Assembly: GCA_027310825.1 (NCBI GenBank) | Contig: DAIDAC010000001.1 | Coordinates: 44,695-108,694, forward strand | Length of the DNA stretch: 64,000 nt | Direction of reading: 5' to 3' | Origin: Candidatus Micrarchaeaceae archaeon | GTDB lineage: Archaea; Micrarchaeota; Micrarchaeia; Micrarchaeales; Micrarchaeaceae | Shown here: positions 14,175 to 27,983 of the stretch, in pieces | How positions within the stretch are numbered: position 1 is the first letter of the stretch | Layout of the letters: every line of letters starts with the position of its first letter | Translations under genes and position numbers: made by a program | The notes under the pieces: generated by a model | What the model saw: the letters and a program-made list of their open reading frames with translations, nothing else | The model's database searches: none | Told to the model about the DNA's origin: nothing

Positions 14175-14582
14175 GTGGAAACAAGATTGATGAGATTTTC
14201 AGAGCTTAGTCCATCAAGTCGCATCAAGGCGCTGGAGGCACTGAAAATAGAAAAGCGGATTGAACGCCAATACGAAATAGAGAGTGCGTTTAGCACCGCT
14301 GTTTATGGGATATCTGAAAGGCTGGCAGACAAAAGGTACATTAGAAGGTTGATTACCGCGCTTTTGGAAGATAAGCAAGGGTTGATGCATGAGTTCGAAA
14401 AAAGGTCTATCGAGAAGGGCTGGCACGCTGACTTTAAAAGACTCAAGAACAGCATGAGAAGATATGCATCCGTACACCGTAGAGAGTATACGGAGTCTAC
14501 TATTGAGAATTGTTTGAACACCAAGGATAGAAATGTCAAAGAGGTACTAGCGCGAGACATTGCACTTATTCTTCGATCTTAG
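14175..14582 (+). CDS. helical protein X1, partner of the first HicA/HicB-like cassette
   Basis: The 135-residue, all-helical basic product has no family that I recognise. It is a clear paralogue of 21826-22272: shared blocks are RIKALEALKIEKRIE versus RAQVLDALRTKREVE, then the pair of DKRYIRRLITALLEDK and DKRYVCDLIDALLHNK, and EFEKRSIEKGWHADFKRLKN versus EFEKRAEEKRWRGELKKLEN. Start is GTG 14175, aligned with the paralogue's ATG. The 45-nt promoters also match, with TCTAAATAATA about 25 nt before the start (leaderless). It converges on the HicB-like gene (1 nt between stops). Confidence 0.65.
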   Translation: METRLMRFSELSPSSRIKALEALKIEKRIERQYEIESAFSTAVYGISERLADKRYIRRLITALLEDKQGLMHEFEKRSIEKGWHADFKRLKNSMRRYASVHRREYTESTIENCLNTKDRNVKEVLARDIALILRS

Positions 14583-14583
14583 G

Positions 14584-14877
14584 CTAATGTCTTAGTGATG
14601 GTGTTTTCTTCTTGGCGTTGACCTCGGCGTTGTATTCGAGGGAAAGCTCCAACGCCTCCACCACATTCTTTTCTAATTCCTTCATGGTACCACCTGTGGT
14701 TGTAACGTGAACCTTTAGATCCCCTTTTTCGTAATTAATTATACCACCGAAACTATCTTTTCCATCTATGGTTTCATGTAAAACCTTAACTGGGAATATG
14801 ACGTGCCCTACCTGCACAAAGTAACGTTTTGTACCCTTGTATTCTACTGTAGCTAATCTCATTATCTCACGCGTCAA
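14584..14877 (-). CDS. HicB-like antitoxin candidate (copy 1)
   Basis: The 97-residue product starts with a beta-rich partial-RNase-H-like part and ends in TTGGTMKELEKNVVEALELSLE, the helix that in HicB family proteins follows the 'T-x-EEA' turn. A DNA-binding tail is not obvious. Its ATG overlaps the stop of the HicA-like gene (ATGA), so the pair is translationally coupled in hicA-hicB order. It should neutralise the HicA-like RNase. Copy 2 lies at 22238-22534. Confidence 0.65.
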   Translation of the reverse strand: MTREIMRLATVEYKGTKRYFVQVGHVIFPVKVLHETIDGKDSFGGIINYEKGDLKVHVTTTGGTMKELEKNVVEALELSLEYNAEVNAKKKTPSLRH

Positions 14878-15224
14878 AGATATTTCTTAACATCATTGTT
14901 GAAGTCCAATTTAAGTTGCTTCATTATGCTTCTTAGAAGTTTCGCTGATAGCGGTTCATCGTGCATCGGAATCACACCAGTACGAATAATGCCATTTTCA
15001 TCCCTTCTCTTTAAAATCACATGACTGCCCTTTTGTCTTACCTGTTCACAACCAAGGTCATTAGTCAATACATTTTTGAGTGCTCTCGGAGTGACAACCG
15101 TTTCTGTAGGCTTTGCGCCCTCCCTGTCCTGCCTAAGCAACTGCTTCTCTCTCTGCGTTACGACGTGCCCCGTTATAGGCACTGTTTTCGACACTGGACC
15201 CCACCCAGTAATAATATACGTCAT
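14874..15224 (-). CDS. HicA-like mRNA interferase with N-terminal extension (copy 1)
   Basis: Residues about 48-110 match HicA (YcfA): LTNDLGCEQVRQKGSHVILKR has the catalytic His in GSH, followed by VIPMHDEPLSAKLLRSIMKQL. HicA cuts mRNA. The first ~35 residues (GWGPVSKTVP, GHVVTQREKQLLRQ) are extra, and they are the part best conserved with copy 2. A TATA-like TATAAATAT lies only about 15 nt before the ATG, so a downstream GTG (codon 11 or 15) could be the true start of a leaderless mRNA. Start uncertain, family firm. Confidence 0.75.
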   Translation of the reverse strand: MTYIITGWGPVSKTVPITGHVVTQREKQLLRQDREGAKPTETVVTPRALKNVLTNDLGCEQVRQKGSHVILKRRDENGIIRTGVIPMHDEPLSAKLLRSIMKQLKLDFNNDVKKYL

Positions 15225-19562: not shown

Positions 19563-20643
19563 TTATGCTATTTGATTGAATTCTGTAACGACTCTCCGTC
19601 TTAAATTATACGTATTGGCAAAACTGGCATACGCCACCCAGCCCGCAAGGCTCCTTACTGCATCTTCTTCAGTCATTTCGCCTCTATCGCATTTTTGCCT
19701 GAACCTGTCTAGACGTTTCCATATTCGTTTTGCATTGCTTCTCTTGAGCAGCCTGTATTTATAGAATACTCTGTAACCCAGCATCGTTATGCCTTGGTTT
19801 ATGGGGAAGATTCCAGATTTTTCTGGGTGAAGCCCGATCTTCAGACTCGTCTTCAAGAATATATCTATTTCCCTCTTCCAGTTTTCGAGAACCATTCTGT
19901 CTCTGTGTAATATTACAAAATCATCAACGTATCTTATGTAGTACTTTGCTTGTAATTTATGCTTTACAAACCAGTCCAACTCGTTCAGATAGACGTTTGC
20001 GAAGAACTGCGAGGTGAGATTGCCAAGCGGCATCCCCTTGCCGATGGTTTCGGCGTTATGGTTTTTTAGAATGATTTTTATTAGCCACAATAAGTTTTGA
20101 TCTTTTATCTTGCGGTTTATTATTTCCAATAAAATGTCATGATCGATGCTGTCAAAATAATGGCGTATATCTGCCTTCAATACATAACCGGCAACTGTCC
20201 TTTGGTCAAACAATTTGCGTTGCCCCCCCCCCCGACTGGTGCGGCACCTCCGCGAAACACTCCTTTCCTAGAAACGTCTCCAATCTCTTTATTGCGGAAT
20301 GGACCCCTTTCCCCTTCTGGTTTGCAAAAGAATCATGGATAAAATCCTTTTCGAATATCGGTCCAGCTATGTTACATACTGCATGATGCACCACCCTGTC
20401 CCTGAAGTGTGATGCGCTTATCTTTCTGGTTTTTGGATCTCTGACTATGAAGGTTTTCATTGGGTTTGGACAGTAAGTGAGTGTTTCCAGTTCATATTTC
20501 AGATCTTTTAAGTTATTCTCCAAATCAGCCTCAAAATGGATGACATATTCCTTTAGGGTCTTCCTCTTCCTGGCCTTCTTATATGCAGATTCCAGGTTCT
20601 CCAGTGAACACAGCCTGGTGTATAGGTTTCTGTAGGTCTTCAT
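19563..20643 (-). CDS. diversity-generating retroelement reverse transcriptase, frameshifted in a G11 tract
   Basis: Two frames form one RT of about 359 residues. The N-terminal frame (20643-20206) has KTYRNLYTRLCSLENLESAY and RDRVVHHAVCNIAGPIFEKD. The C-terminal frame (to 19563) has VLKADIRHYFDSIDHDILL, GMPLGNLTSQFFANVYLNE (the DGR signature in place of the QG-SP motif of group II introns), catalytic RYVDDFVIL and GITMLGYRVF. The frames meet at 11 consecutive G (C on the plus strand, 20223-20233). Removing one G gives SGGGQRKLFDQRTVAGYVLK and restores the protein. No Avd-like accessory gene is visible. The start lies 33 nt after the template repeat. Confidence 0.9.
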
Positions 20644-20676
20644 GTGATTACCATAAGACCTAGGACGTAAGCAGAA

Positions 20677-20773
20677 GCCATTTGAGCATCGTTGCCCTGC
20701 CTGATGTCCGTGTTGACGTTGAGACTGTTCCTGTTGTTGTAGTTGTTGTAGTTGACGTTGACGGCCAGAAGCC
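20677..20773 (-). repeat. DGR template repeat (TR)
   Basis: The 97-nt repeat, read on the minus strand, is rich in AAC codons: GGCTTCTGGCCGTC, then AACGTCAACTACAACAAC and a second TACAACAAC, ending GATGCTCAAATGGC. It is the unmutated donor for the variable repeat at 21195-21282. All 22 mismatches in the alignment are at adenines of this copy, 18 of them A to G and 4 A to T. It contains a tandem 9-mer TACAACAAC twice, where the variable copy has one unit. Standard DGR order (TR, then RT) is kept. Confidence 0.93.
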
Positions 20774-20946
20774 GCAAAGATAACCCATCTACTAAAACGC
20801 CACTTTCGTGGTTCACCACAGCTTCACGGTTTCGGTTTCCTTACTCAGTGTCGCTGTTGAATTTCATGTCTGGCATATCCCTGCTGGATTACCAGCACTA
20901 TAGATGAGTGTGTGGCTCCTAGGCTTACATCCGCGGCTTTGCCGCG
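20774..20946 (-). other. structured spacer between DGR target gene and template repeat
   Basis: This gap between the target gene (ends 21005) and the TR has no open frame worth calling. It holds two good hairpins: CCACGAAAGTGG on the minus strand (about 20799-20812), with a GNRA-type loop, and CGCGGC-TTT-GCCGCG at 20932-20946. It may be part of the TR-containing RNA that primes cDNA synthesis, or a target-gene terminator. Both are inferences. Confidence 0.45.
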
Positions 20947-21004
20947 TTTTGCAGAGTTTTCACCCTTGCAAACCTAGGTGAAAGTAATAAGAAATTGCAG
21001 GTAT

Positions 21005-21688
21005 TTATTCGTTTGTTGCCCTTACCAACTCCTGCAATTTTTCAAATTTCTTTTGCAAGGCACTCATGTCGGTTGCGTGTTTCTCCTGCATTGCTTGCAT
21101 GTCGGTCTGAATCTCGCTCAGCAATGCACTCGCTTCCTTGTTGCCCCTAAGCAGCTGCGGCGCGCTTGCGCTTGTTGCTTCTTGGCTTAACAGCGCCACC
21201 CGAGCAACGCCGCCCCGCCCGAAGCCCGTGCCGACGTCGAGACCGTCCCAGTCGTAGTAGCCGACGCCGACGGCCAGAAGCCTTGCTTCTTTAGCCTCTT
21301 GCGCTTCCTTAATAACATTTAGAGCAGGTTCATTGAAATATGCTCTCTGAGACCATGGAACCTTATCCACTTCTCCTGAAGTGCTCTTTACATAAACTCC
21401 GTCCTTGAATATACACCAGCCCTCTTCCATGTCTTTTATTTTTATCTCTCTGCCTTTCTTGTCTGCAAACTTGATATCGGCAGTGCTGACTACGATAATT
21501 TCGTTTCTAGCCGCCTCTACGAACTTCTGATTGGCTTGCATTTTAGATAGGCCGGCTACTTTGTCGACACCGTATTTCTGACCGGCTTCTGCGACACTGT
21601 GCACTACGCCTTTTGACTTTGTCAAACCCGCTGCTGGTGCTTCTGACTGCGCCTGCATTCTTTGTGCATCTGCCGTTGTTACTGCCAT
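21005..21688 (-). CDS. DGR target protein with internal variable segment and C-terminal coiled coil
   Basis: The 227-residue soluble product has a Gln/Ala-rich N-terminus, a middle region with IIVVSTADIKFADKKG and WCIFKDGVYVKSTSG (beta-rich), the variable segment at residues about 136-165 (RLLAVGVGYYDWDGLDVG, TGFGRGGVARVALL), and a C-terminal coiled coil (about 184-225, SEIQTDMQAMQEKHATDMSA). The first part of the variable segment resembles the end of a C-type-lectin or formylglycine-enzyme-like fold, but it is not C-terminal as in known DGR targets. No signal peptide is present. ATG 21688 follows GTGAG, with a TATA-like TTTATATATTT about 30-40 nt upstream. Confidence 0.88.
   Translation of the reverse strand: MAVTTADAQRMQAQSEAPAAGLTKSKGVVHSVAEAGQKYGVDKVAGLSKMQANQKFVEAARNEIIVVSTADIKFADKKGREIKIKDMEEGWCIFKDGVYVKSTSGEVDKVPWSQRAYFNEPALNVIKEAQEAKEARLLAVGVGYYDWDGLDVGTGFGRGGVARVALLSQEATSASAPQLLRGNKEASALLSEIQTDMQAMQEKHATDMSALQKKFEKLQELVRATNE
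21195..21282 (-). repeat. DGR variable repeat (VR) inside the target gene
   Basis: These 88 nt align to the TR at 20677-20773 with one 9-nt gap. Fixed ends are GGCTTCTGGCCGTC and GGC. Within the aligned part, every C, G and T of the template is kept, and only adenines vary, mostly in first and second codon positions of AAC, so amino acids change while stop codons are avoided. Confidence 0.93.
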
Positions 21689-21825
21689 AATCTCACTGTA
21701 ATAAGTAGCGTAATTTCAAATATATAAATGTAGTGGAAAATGAAATTTTCCGAGCAAAACCTTGTGATTTTGTAATATGCGAAGCTCGCAGTTAAGTCTA
21801 AATAATACGGCAGAAAATGCTTATT

Positions 21826-22272
21826 ATGGCAGAGATAAAACTGCTTAAGCCATCTGATCTTACGCCTAAAGAGAGGGCACAAGTGCTCGATGCTTTAAGG
21901 ACGAAAAGAGAAGTCGAACCAGCGCCATTCACGGAAGGCAGATTGGAGTCTTCCGTATTTAACATCAGCAATATACTCTGCGACAAGCGGTACGTCTGTG
22001 ATTTGATTGATGCGCTTCTCCACAACAAAAAGGAACAAGTCGCGGAATTTGAAAAGAGAGCGGAAGAAAAGAGATGGCGCGGAGAGCTAAAGAAACTTGA
22101 AAATGCGATACAGGAAGCCCTATCTCTTTATACTGAAGAGGGGGTGCGACTCATCATAGAGCGCGGCCTAAGGTCGCAAGATTTAACTTCAAGATCGAAA
22201 AGAGAATGGGATATGGAAGCTCTCCTCCATACTGAAACTAACGTCTTGCCGGAACGGGATGTCTTTGTCTAG
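21826..22272 (+). CDS. helical protein X2, partner of the second HicA/HicB-like cassette
   Basis: The 148-residue paralogue of 14175-14582 shares its helical blocks and promoter (AGTTAAGTCTAAATAATA about 25 nt before the start). I start at ATG 21826, which aligns with the GTG of copy 1. The C-terminal ~25 residues (SKREWDMEALLHTETN...) are an extension that overlaps the convergent HicB-like gene by 35 nt. Function unknown; its constant pairing with the HicA/HicB-like genes suggests a third component of that system. Confidence 0.65.
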   Translation: MAEIKLLKPSDLTPKERAQVLDALRTKREVEPAPFTEGRLESSVFNISNILCDKRYVCDLIDALLHNKKEQVAEFEKRAEEKRWRGELKKLENAIQEALSLYTEEGVRLIIERGLRSQDLTSRSKREWDMEALLHTETNVLPERDVFV

Positions 22273-22534
22273 CAATCACTAGCCTCTCAGCGTTTTCCTC
22301 AAGGCAGAGCTTCAAAGCGTCATCGATCATCTCTCTGAGCTCCTTCATGGTGCTTCCTTGAGTTGCCAAGCGAATTTGTAGTCTTTCGGTGCTATAATCT
22401 ATTTCTGCGCTGTAAATGATCTTCCCGTCCACTTTGTCTTTGGAAACTTTCACCGGCACTAAAGCGTTCTCTACTCTTATCGCGTAGGTTCTTTCTCCCT
22501 TGCTCTCTACTGTTACAAATCTCATCATATTCAT
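22238..22534 (-). CDS. HicB-like antitoxin candidate (copy 2)
   Basis: Starting at ATG 22534, which overlaps the HicA-like stop (ATGA), the product has 98 residues. It parallels copy 1: MMRFVTVESKGERTYAIRV, ALVPVKVSKDKVDGK, and TQGSTMKELREMIDDALKL, ending in a basic tail (RQRHPVPARR). The longer open frame upstream lies inside the HicA-like gene and is not used. Confidence 0.65.
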   Translation of the reverse strand: MNMMRFVTVESKGERTYAIRVENALVPVKVSKDKVDGKIIYSAEIDYSTERLQIRLATQGSTMKELREMIDDALKLCLEENAERLVIARQRHPVPARR

Positions 22535-22881
22535 CCTTTTTCCAAGTACGGCCTTACTTCCTCGTTGAACCTGAATTCTAATTGCTTCATTATAATATCT
22601 AAGGTTTTCGGTGCGATTTCCTTGCAGTGAATAGGTATCGCCGAACTCTTCCCCTTTTCTGGTCTTTCCACAATCATGTGGCTCCCTGTTTGTCTCTTTA
22701 TCCTGCAACCGAGCTGATTAACCAGAACTTTGACCAGGTCTTCAGGCATCACCGTAATGTGCTTGGGTTTTGTCTCGGGGCTCTCCTGCCTAAGCAGCTG
22801 CTTCTCCTTCTGCGTTACGACGTGCCCCACTAAAGGCACTGTTTTCGACACTGGACCCCACCCAATAATAATATACGTCAT
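22531..22881 (-). CDS. HicA-like mRNA interferase with N-terminal extension (copy 2)
   Basis: The 116-residue paralogue of 14874-15224 has the HicA core LVNQLGCRIKRQTGSHMIVER with catalytic His, and IPIHCKEIAPKTLDIIMKQL. Its N-terminal extension (GWGPVSKTVP, GHVVTQKEKQLLRQ) is almost identical to that of copy 1, although the toxin cores have diverged. Upstream CGTCATACGAAATATTTAAA also matches copy 1. The extension may be a targeting or antitoxin-contact segment, or partly untranslated leader DNA if a later GTG is used. Confidence 0.75.
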   Translation of the reverse strand: MTYIIIGWGPVSKTVPLVGHVVTQKEKQLLRQESPETKPKHITVMPEDLVKVLVNQLGCRIKRQTGSHMIVERPEKGKSSAIPIHCKEIAPKTLDIIMKQLEFRFNEEVRPYLEKG

Positions 22882-25776: not shown

Positions 25777-26484
25777 TCAGTCAGGATATGCTTCCTTTAG
25801 AGCGGTTTCTGTGAGTATATCAAGAGTGTCATAGACTTTTACTGGCGAGTCTCCAGCCTTTAGAACCAGTGGGAGCTCAGTGCATCCTAGAATTACGGCC
25901 TCTGCTCCGGCAGCTTCCATTTTTCGTATTATCGAGATTAGTGCTTCCTTATCTTTTTTGTCTATTCTGCCTCCCATGACATGTAATATTATCTGCGTTA
26001 TTCTTTCTTTATCGGTTGCTGATGGTTCTACAAGACGCACGCCGACCTTTTTCAGTGCCTTAGCGTATACTTCCTCATGATAAGAGTCTTCAGACGCCAA
26101 AAGCCCGACTGTTTTTACCCCCCCCGTTCTTGCCACTGCCTCAACTGTCTTATCCGTCATGCTGATAACTGGAATTTTTATGTGCTTTCGAAGCTCCTGC
26201 AGAAACGTATGTGCAGTGTTGCATGGTAAGACCACAAAATCACATCCGGAAACAGTAAGTCGTATTATCCCGTCAATAAATTCTGTAAGAAGAAGTTTTC
26301 TGTTGGCGATGCCAGATTCGTCTGAACCTTTTGGAGCCATTGAGTATATTACGATTTGCGGATAGTCTTTGTCCTGTACCGCATTGTGTTCAACCTGACA
26401 CTGTTTTAGTATTCTCTTGTAGAATTCAGCAGTTGCTTCTGGGCCCATTCCGCCTAATATGCCGATAGTCTTTATCTGCTCCAT
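25777..26484 (-). CDS. aspartate/glutamate racemase family protein
   Basis: The 235-residue product has both catalytic cysteines in their motifs: VVLPCNTAHTF at about residue 84 and VILGCTELPLV at about 196. The GILGGMGPEATAEFY start is typical of aspartate racemase-like (YgeA/RacX) proteins. It interconverts L- and D-amino acids without cofactor. D-amino acids in an archaeon without peptidoglycan are unusual, so the substrate is open. Structured repeats flank the gene on both sides (25449, 25653 and 26531), which suggests that it moved as a unit. Confidence 0.88.
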   Translation of the reverse strand: MEQIKTIGILGGMGPEATAEFYKRILKQCQVEHNAVQDKDYPQIVIYSMAPKGSDESGIANRKLLLTEFIDGIIRLTVSGCDFVVLPCNTAHTFLQELRKHIKIPVISMTDKTVEAVARTGGVKTVGLLASEDSYHEEVYAKALKKVGVRLVEPSATDKERITQIILHVMGGRIDKKDKEALISIIRKMEAAGAEAVILGCTELPLVLKAGDSPVKVYDTLDILTETALKEAYPD

Positions 26485-26777: not shown

Positions 26778-27983
26778 TTACGTTTTTCTTCCCTTCTTCG
26801 TTTGCATTAGTAAGTATGCATGTACTATGTCCTCCACTATCTTTGGATCCTTCATCATCTCTGCTTGCATGTTCTTTATCCTGTCTTCCGCTTCCTGTGC
26901 ATTCATCGCCGTACTTATGTCAAGAGGTGCTCCGCACCTGTTACAATAAGTAGAATCGAGTGTATTGTCAAATCGACACTTGCTGCATACCTTGGTCTTG
27001 AGCTTCGGTTCGGTCATGTTATCTACCGGCTTCTGGCCGTTCGCCTGGAGTATGGCATTGTCTATGTCCCTGCCGCTCAGGTGCACGTATGTGCTGGCCA
27101 TCCTGCTATCCCCAGACCATCCGAAGAACGCCTTTAGCTGCTGTTCTGTGAGCCTGTTAGCGTAATAGGAAGCCCTGCTGTGCCTGAATAGGTGAGGATA
27201 TATCCTCTTTGTTATTCCTGCCTTCTTTCCGGTGTTTTTCAGCATTAGTCTTATTCCTGAGTAATCCGACCTTATGTCATGGGCCGCCCAGCTGCCTTCT
27301 GCCATCCATAAGTAAGAGGTTGGTTTCTTGTCCGTTTTTGAATTTAGGAGCTGCGCCAGATAAGGAACACTGAACATTATCGGTATTTTCCTCATTCCGG
27401 TCTTTCCGTCAACCACTACATGCGCCGGTTGGTTGACAAGGTCCACGTCCTTTATCTTCATCTGCATCAGCTCTCCCATTCTCATGCCGGAATCGAAAAG
27501 CAGCGCGATTATGGCCTTGTTTCTGATGCTGGCAGTTGCATTCAGCATCCTGATTATCTCGTCTTCGCTAAGTATGTCCTCCGGCAGTATCTTCTTTGTC
27601 CTGCCCACCATTCCGGACTTGATCCACGCTATCTGCTTTGGATAATAAAGGTCTTCTCCCAGAAAATGCTTGTAGACTGACTTGATTGATATCTTTATGT
27701 GCTGCTTTGTGAATGCTGAGTATTTTGTGTGTTCAATTTGCGCCATTGCCTTTTCTATGTCCTCTCTGCTTGCTGTCAAAACGTCAACGTTGCCTATCGC
27801 TCTGAGATAAACAGCAATGCAATAGAGATTTTTGTTAACCGTTCTAGGGTTCAGGCCTCGCGCTTCCATGAATGCAACGTATTTCCTTACTAGTTCCTTG
27901 TTAGAAGCAGGGATTTTCTTATTCGTCTCTATCGCGCCTATTATCTGCGTTACCCTCTTTTGTGCTTCGTCCAAATAAGTCAT
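26778..27983 (-). CDS. tyrosine recombinase/integrase with C-terminal zinc ribbon
   Basis: The 401-residue enzyme has an N-terminal SAM-like core-binding domain (about 25-115) and a catalytic domain with Arg in LFDSGMRMGEL, HLFRHSRASYY (H-x-x-R), GWSGDSRMASTYVH (His/Trp position and nucleophile Tyr). A zinc ribbon follows (CSKCRFDNTLDSTYCNRCG) and a C-terminal helix. Recombinases of this type move archaeal plasmids and viruses into tRNA genes. It ends the accessory region 75 nt from a tRNA 3' end, in the place expected of an integrase. A leaderless start at ATG 27983 is likely. Confidence 0.92.
   Translation of the reverse strand: MTYLDEAQKRVTQIIGAIETNKKIPASNKELVRKYVAFMEARGLNPRTVNKNLYCIAVYLRAIGNVDVLTASREDIEKAMAQIEHTKYSAFTKQHIKISIKSVYKHFLGEDLYYPKQIAWIKSGMVGRTKKILPEDILSEDEIIRMLNATASIRNKAIIALLFDSGMRMGELMQMKIKDVDLVNQPAHVVVDGKTGMRKIPIMFSVPYLAQLLNSKTDKKPTSYLWMAEGSWAAHDIRSDYSGIRLMLKNTGKKAGITKRIYPHLFRHSRASYYANRLTEQQLKAFFGWSGDSRMASTYVHLSGRDIDNAILQANGQKPVDNMTEPKLKTKVCSKCRFDNTLDSTYCNRCGAPLDISTAMNAQEAEDRIKNMQAEMMKDPKIVEDIVHAYLLMQTKKGRKT

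Follow-up and report, generated by a model that had tools for sequence, protein, structure and literature searches.

The stretch of DNA analysed here (the window; 64,000 nt, from a Micrarchaeota genome assembly of 975 kb that is 91.6% complete) carries on its minus strand a diversity-generating retroelement (DGR), in which a target gene with a variable repeat (VR) is followed by the structured RNA RT-16, a template repeat (TR) and the gene for a reverse transcriptase (RT, running from 20643 to 19563; the other coordinates are collected in Table 1). The RT gene is not a single open reading frame (ORF). Its N-terminal half and its C-terminal catalytic half lie in different frames that meet at a run of eleven G residues (G11), and from the comparison with related loci we consider it probable that this run is a phase-variation switch by which the targeted mutagenesis of the DGR is turned on and off.

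The two halves match consecutive stretches of one and the same PHROG RT profile, and the frame of the C-terminal half is open upstream through the G11 tract, where it amounts to 234 amino acids. A single-chain RT, which is usual for DGRs without strictly defining them, is not found in the window. The sequence-only reading had described the locus as an almost complete unit; RT, TR and target are indeed there, and what it overlooked is that the RT lies in two frames.

TR and VR (97 and 88 nt, respectively) align with a single gap of 9 nt, which corresponds to a single copy of the tandem 9-mer TACAACAAC in the TR, leaving 88 positions to compare, 27 of which are A. The best gap placement gives 21 substitutions (18 A to G and 3 A to T) and none at C, G or T, and the probability that all 21 would fall on A by chance is about 3e-15 (hypergeometric). 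The next best placements give 22 substitutions (18 A to G and 4 A to T), again all at template A, which is the count that had been put forward from the sequence alone; the adenine-only character of the 88-nt match was thus reproduced when the alignment was rerun. The RT has the motifs LGNLTSQ and RYVDD, and a profile made from the window RT and 21 relatives had as its best solved match 8ub7, the RT of the BPP-1 DGR (205 bits), against 110 bits for the best group II intron RT and 20-24 bits for retrons. The structure model of P0034, a full-length relative, with a predicted local distance difference test score (pLDDT) of 84, likewise had the DGR RT 8ub7 as its top fold match (TMq 0.81). In a tree of the C-terminal part of the RT (49 rows, without retrons, L243 being dropped because it had no usable piece, and with 21 of the 46 inner branches unresolved), the group II references separate with a support of 100/98, and the Micrarchaeota rows make up one side of a branch with a support of only 73/77. 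Given the TR/VR pair, the class of the RT, its fold and its position in the tree, the window element is therefore a DGR, and the earlier assignment of the RT to the DGR type stands.

The RT-16 RNA scores 71.9 bits against an Rfam gathering threshold of 50, and was found in all 12 Micrarchaeota loci and all 12 other archaeal loci given. No match to bAvd (PF22296) was obtained in the 91.6% complete genome, where all three positive-control genomes were matched, in agreement with the earlier remark that no Avd-like gene is visible. In the DGR of the Bordetella phage BPP-1, which consists of bRT, Avd, TR and a VR in mtd, the transfer from TR to VR is adenine-specific and the RT works with Avd; Avd is not present in all DGRs. 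The window element is like that of BPP-1 in the class of its RT and in its adenine-specific TR/VR pair, and differs from it in that the BPP-1 RT is one chain of 328 amino acids that in the alignment lacks most of the tract-holding linker. Another difference concerns the RNA, which lies 3' of the TR in BPP-1 (RF03022; L270 383-515) and 5' of the TR in the window (RT-16). Given this opposite side, the priming of the RT may be organised differently here.

Table 1. Features of the DGR locus (positions in the window)
Feature	Positions	Strand	Basis
Target gene, 227 amino acids, VR mid-gene, predicted helical C-terminal tail	21005..21688	-	ORF list
Variable repeat (VR), 88 nt	21195..21282	-	TR/VR alignment
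RT-16 structured RNA (RF03019), directly 5' of TR	20775..20978	-	Rfam match
Template repeat (TR), 97 nt, internal tandem TACAACAAC	20677..20773	-	TR/VR alignment
RT N-terminal half; frame continues to just beyond G tract	20206..20643	-	phrog_1423 E 4.8e-44, profile 96-222
G11 tract, RT frame change point, proposed phase switch	20223..20233	-	sequence, run search
RT C-terminal half, from motif A to the end, with YVDD	19563..20213	-	phrog_1423 E 1.9e-75, profile 228-439

The G11 tract is the sole G/C run of at least nine in the assembly, for which 0.17 runs of 11 or more and 3.1 runs of nine or more would be expected by chance with independent bases. Given this expectation, the case for a phase switch rests on the relatives and not on the window tract alone. 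When the window genome was pooled with 15 relatives chosen for their poly-G or poly-C tracts, the RT linker was found to hold 17 of the 27 G/C runs of nine or more; in five repeat-free relatives such runs numbered 0, 0, 0, 1 and 1, always outside the RT. Repeats outside the linkers were scarce in the Micrarchaeota stretches, and were found only in the window (C8 at 26118), in L238 and, three of them, in L242, the RT of which is a distant one. The C8 run, the sole other such run in the window, lies in an open racemase-like ORF (25777-26484). In the P0034 model the repeat-coded GGGGG (residues 138-142) touches residues 139-146, one of the two stretches with a pLDDT below 50 (the other being 68-72), and the tract-coded linker seems to tolerate many sequences. 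With most of it lacking in the BPP-1 RT, the linker is a suitable place for such a repeat.

RT matches were present in 46 of the 301 genomes of the phylum sample. From these we examined 39 loci, leaving out short fragments and most of the distant matches, and 33 of them could be scored (both anchors on one contig; six lacked an anchor). The contig of L255 ends inside a G8 tract and that of L259 in the linker. A repeat was defined in this linker survey as at least 6 bases or 4 units, all hits having 8 or more bases or 5 or more units, and in the other scans (window, other loci and IMG/VR) as at least 8 bases or 5 units. In 25 of the 33 loci there was a repeat between the N-terminal half and motif A, namely poly-G in 18 (8-11), poly-C in 2 (8-9) and (AG)n in 5. 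Neither half-frame was interrupted before the repeat in 23 of these 25; the remaining two, L232 and L258, are a related pair with stops outside the tract and look decayed. The 23 non-decayed repeat loci comprised 20 that were out of frame (+1 in 11 loci, -1 in 9) and three that were in frame (L240, L241 and L250), and the eight repeat-free loci were all in frame. As a control we took 72 other loci, 3 of them on viral contigs and 69 on genome contigs, the titles of which mostly name DPANN archaea; all 53 that could be scored (19 could not) were in frame and had no repeat in that linker, so that the presence of a linker repeat differs between the Micrarchaeota and the control loci with a Fisher value of 4.5e-15. 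A TR/VR pair was found in 27 of the 41 relative stretches given, and a pair with at least 10 adenine changes in 16 of the 20 out-of-frame loci (not in L228, L247, L252 and L256); the detection permitted by design at most one non-A mismatch and cannot gauge non-A change.

The tracts also differ between close relatives. Among close pairs, L248 has G8 and is out of frame and L250 has G10 and is in frame, L227 is repeat-free and L229 has G9, and L221 is repeat-free and L222 has G11. One genome has two DGRs, L239 with an (AG)n repeat out of frame and L240 with an (AG)n repeat in frame. L232 and L258 have identical flanks around G8 and G10, respectively, and in L256 a scaffold gap of this one MAG has the same short sequence on both sides, once with G9 and once with G11, which looks like two length variants that were not merged. 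On the RT tree, with its many unresolved branches, the minimum number of changes is 11 for the kind of repeat, 7 for its presence and 8 for the frame. Similar alleles occur among database proteins. P0123 matches the full-length RT P0088 without a difference over the N-terminal part (137/137 residues) before it goes out of frame, and P0102, which is annotated only from the C-terminal part, matches P0088 there at every residue (208/208). The N-terminal anchor was present in 33 and not in 82 of 115 database RTs with motif A (from the 120 best of 7023), and 14 of these 33 carry Gly, Pro or Glu-Arg linker runs that look like in-frame repeats. Among 114 RT fragments with only the N-terminal part (from the 120 best of 589), 102 terminate in a run of the Gly, Pro or Glu-Arg type and 12 do not, as classified by a loose pattern (GG counts). 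The locus thus has what is looked for in a phase-variable gene, a simple repeat within the ORF with a unit that is not a multiple of three, and in-frame and out-of-frame alleles among close relatives (L248/L250, L239/L240 and P0088/P0123/P0102).

Selection on the two halves was compared in nine non-decayed pairs, in all of which one or both loci are out of frame. The ratio of non-synonymous to synonymous substitution rates (dN/dS) was 0.03-0.14 in all 8 measurable half-gene comparisons (3 N-terminal and 5 C-terminal) of the 18; in the decayed pair L232/L258 it was 0.42 for the N-terminal part. Where measurable, both RT halves are under purifying selection. The conserved halves, together with the TR/VR pairs in 16 of the 20 out-of-frame loci, suggest that out-of-frame RT genes are functional in at least a part of the cells or generations.

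Repeats of the length found here slip during replication, as is established for bacterial phase-variable genes. Phase variation of the RT would explain why the relatives carry three kinds of repeat at one linker site, with +1, -1 and in-frame alleles and with conserved halves, and it is for these reasons that we favour it. Slipped-strand pairing during replication would alter the length of the tract, and the slippage would escape repair, as the genome seems to have neither MutS nor NucS: MutS was found neither in the window genome (control 11/14) nor in any of 60 genomes of its relatives, and NucS was not found in the window genome (control 7/14). Such a lack would raise slippage genome-wide and would not by itself explain the site. 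The length of the tract modulo 3 would then set whether ribosomes pass from the N-terminal half into the catalytic half. The window assembly likely corresponds to the OFF state, which would yield no full RT and leave the target sequence as it is; in the ON state, the RNA of the TR would be copied by the RT with errors at adenines and the VR rewritten. The outcome would be a two-tier contingency system, with a random switch atop a random mutator.

Frameshifted alleles could also be productive in themselves, if RNA polymerase or the ribosome slipped at the tract in a programmed way and yielded a fixed low fraction of full-length RT at any tract length, the repeat being a dosage device and not a genetic switch. 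The observation that 20 of the 23 non-decayed alleles are out of frame and that 16 of these 20 nevertheless have adenine-specific TR/VR pairs is in line with such a device, as is the conservation of the RT halves where it is measurable. We nevertheless regard it as unlikely, since a programmed signal is expected to hold one direction, whereas +1, -1 and in-frame alleles all occur, since (AG)n and poly-C replace poly-G at the same site, and since 8 of the 33 relatives are repeat-free and in frame; the variety of alleles and the three kinds of repeat make a fixed programmed frameshift the less likely explanation.

Decay of the RT into a pseudogene, or a miscounted tract, is in our view very unlikely, although homopolymers are error-prone, two of the 25 repeat loci (L232/L258) do look decayed and frameshifted DGR RTs have been taken as inactivated before, in the accessible part of PMC3521204. 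In 23 of the 25 repeat loci both frames reach the repeat without a stop, which places the frame change there, dN/dS is well below 1 where measurable, and the same site is affected in many genera, also by (AG)n, which is not a typical miscount. A miscount in the window assembly is possible, but would leave the family-wide pattern untouched. An RT made as two polypeptides, the N-terminal and the C-terminal half, that then join into one enzyme would be in line with the start codons that the C-terminal frame has near motif A (TTG at 20213 in the window; P0102 is annotated from there). A split gene requires no repeat, however, and single-chain in-frame forms are seen in all 8 repeat-free loci, in all 53 scorable other loci and in 3 repeat loci, which makes a split enzyme extremely improbable.

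Several points weigh against phase variation. Switching is inferred from assembled sequences and was not seen within one population, and assemblies can miscount homopolymers. P0102 and P0123 are known as proteins only, and their source strains may differ from that of P0088. dS was saturated in 10 of the 18 half-gene comparisons and high in the rest, and the 21 unresolved inner branches (of 46) burden the RT tree. In-frame alleles are found in less than the one third that might be expected (3 of 23, P = 0.026), which may reflect a preference for OFF, uneven sampling or a use of the out-of-frame form itself. Their scarcity fits a costly ON state, but it also fits programmed slippage. Finally, in the accessible part of their paper Roux et al. 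2021 (PMC8144416) take DGR activity as widespread and seemingly constant, not triggered, and this speaks against a switch being the general rule among DGRs.

Repeats were also found at DGRs outside the Micrarchaeota. The 72 other loci (588 kb; 2 without an anchor) had 15 repeats, 9 of which within the RT region. In L039, L041, L047 and L067 a poly-G repeat (9-11) lies at the junction between a bAvd-like gene, which scores above the Pfam cut-off for bAvd in all four, and the RT (L047 4257-5675; near 4570 in L039, L041 and L067). L047 encodes an in-frame Avd-RT fusion of 472 amino acids, and in L039, L041 and L067 the Avd and RT frames differ. In L066 and L100 the repeat lies in the loop preceding GMPLGNLTSQ, both times in frame, and in L052 and L058 near the C-terminus of the RT, in frame in L058 and with a stop just after it in L052. 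More distant RTs from IMG/VR (77 loci, 635 kb, 8 without an anchor) served as a control and had 16 repeats, 2 of which in the RT region; lone short runs in RTs do occur elsewhere. The variety of sites suggests that repeat switches arose more than once. It appears rather likely to us that DPANN archaea have repeatedly evolved repeat switches for their hypermutation systems, the sites being the RT linker (three kinds of repeat, in Micrarchaeota), the Avd-RT junction (in Aenigmatarchaeota and kin), the gap between ATG and RT, and RT loops; targeted mutagenesis would then be phase-variable, with a minority that mutates and a majority that keeps the proven target, which has not been described before.

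The 9 repeats within the RT region also include a C10 run in L062 (2934), which separates an ATG from the RT frame in a manner that resembles a start-codon phase switch. A run of G8-G9 was also observed just 5' of RT-16 in L072 (4235), L105 (4327) and L106 (4312), and repeats near RT-16 may tune the template RNA. A repeat-switched accessory ORF considered in L072 was rejected, the stretch scoring as RT-16 RNA.

The target gene matched no Pfam or NCBIfam family, and its structure model is unreliable (pLDDT 41). Its sole other homologue among the matches listed is P0122 (genome G058; L234 6190-6861), which is 62% identical and has a VR that aligns ungapped to the window TR, with 35 differences, 25 of which are at A. 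No TR/VR pair and no RT were found in the 13 kb fetched around the P0122 gene, which suggests that P0122 could be an orphaned or remotely served target. A second target of the window TR was not found in the genome at E below 1e-3, the only matches being the TR itself and the VR.

A tyrosine recombinase with a zinc ribbon is encoded at 26778-27983, 5 kb from the DGR. Homologues occur in 7 of the 46 fetched relative stretches (L228, L230, L239, L240, L244, L250 and L253), all of which also carry a relative of the DGR RT, which hints that DGR cassettes may travel with a tyrosine recombinase; the mobility and integration put forward from the sequence alone are putative. The window further has two similar-looking modules of small genes (14175-15224 and 21817-22881); the one adjoining the DGR includes a HicA-family gene (22531-22881; PF07927).

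The nanoarchaeal and ANMV-1 DGRs (Paul et al. 2015, PMC4372165) are archaeal cassettes as well, and the nanoarchaeal targets are orphan genes; the accessible part of that paper does not mention frameshifts, phase variation or homopolymers. In Campylobacter genes with poly-G/C tracts of at least 7 (PMC4965091) and in the (AG)12 methyltransferase gene of Mycoplasma mycoides (PMC3498834), the length of a mononucleotide and a dinucleotide repeat within the ORF, respectively, sets the frame, as far as the available parts of these papers go. The genes switched there are not mutation engines, whereas here it is the archaeal RT of a targeted hypermutator. The RTs collected in DiGReF (PMC3521204) are similar in that ORFs are broken by frameshifts with TR and VR intact, and differ in that, in the portion of the text at hand, this is read as inactivation or sequencing error, with homopolymers and phase unmentioned. 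From sequence statistics on prokaryotes, 18 archaeal genomes among them, the inactivation of genes through homopolymers has been put forward, but not for DGRs (PMC2831843, accessible part). Among the open-access papers listed we found no earlier report of a phase-variable DGR RT, and none is mentioned in the accessible parts of PMC8144416, PMC8867640, PMC10053308, PMC4372165, PMC10907252 and PMC12875486.

The annotation of split RTs in these genomes as pseudogenes is probably wrong in many cases. If the repeat in the RT is indeed a switch, it would account for DGRs that are conserved in spite of their broken appearance, and it would, as far as the open-access literature shows, be the first phase-variable targeted hypermutator.
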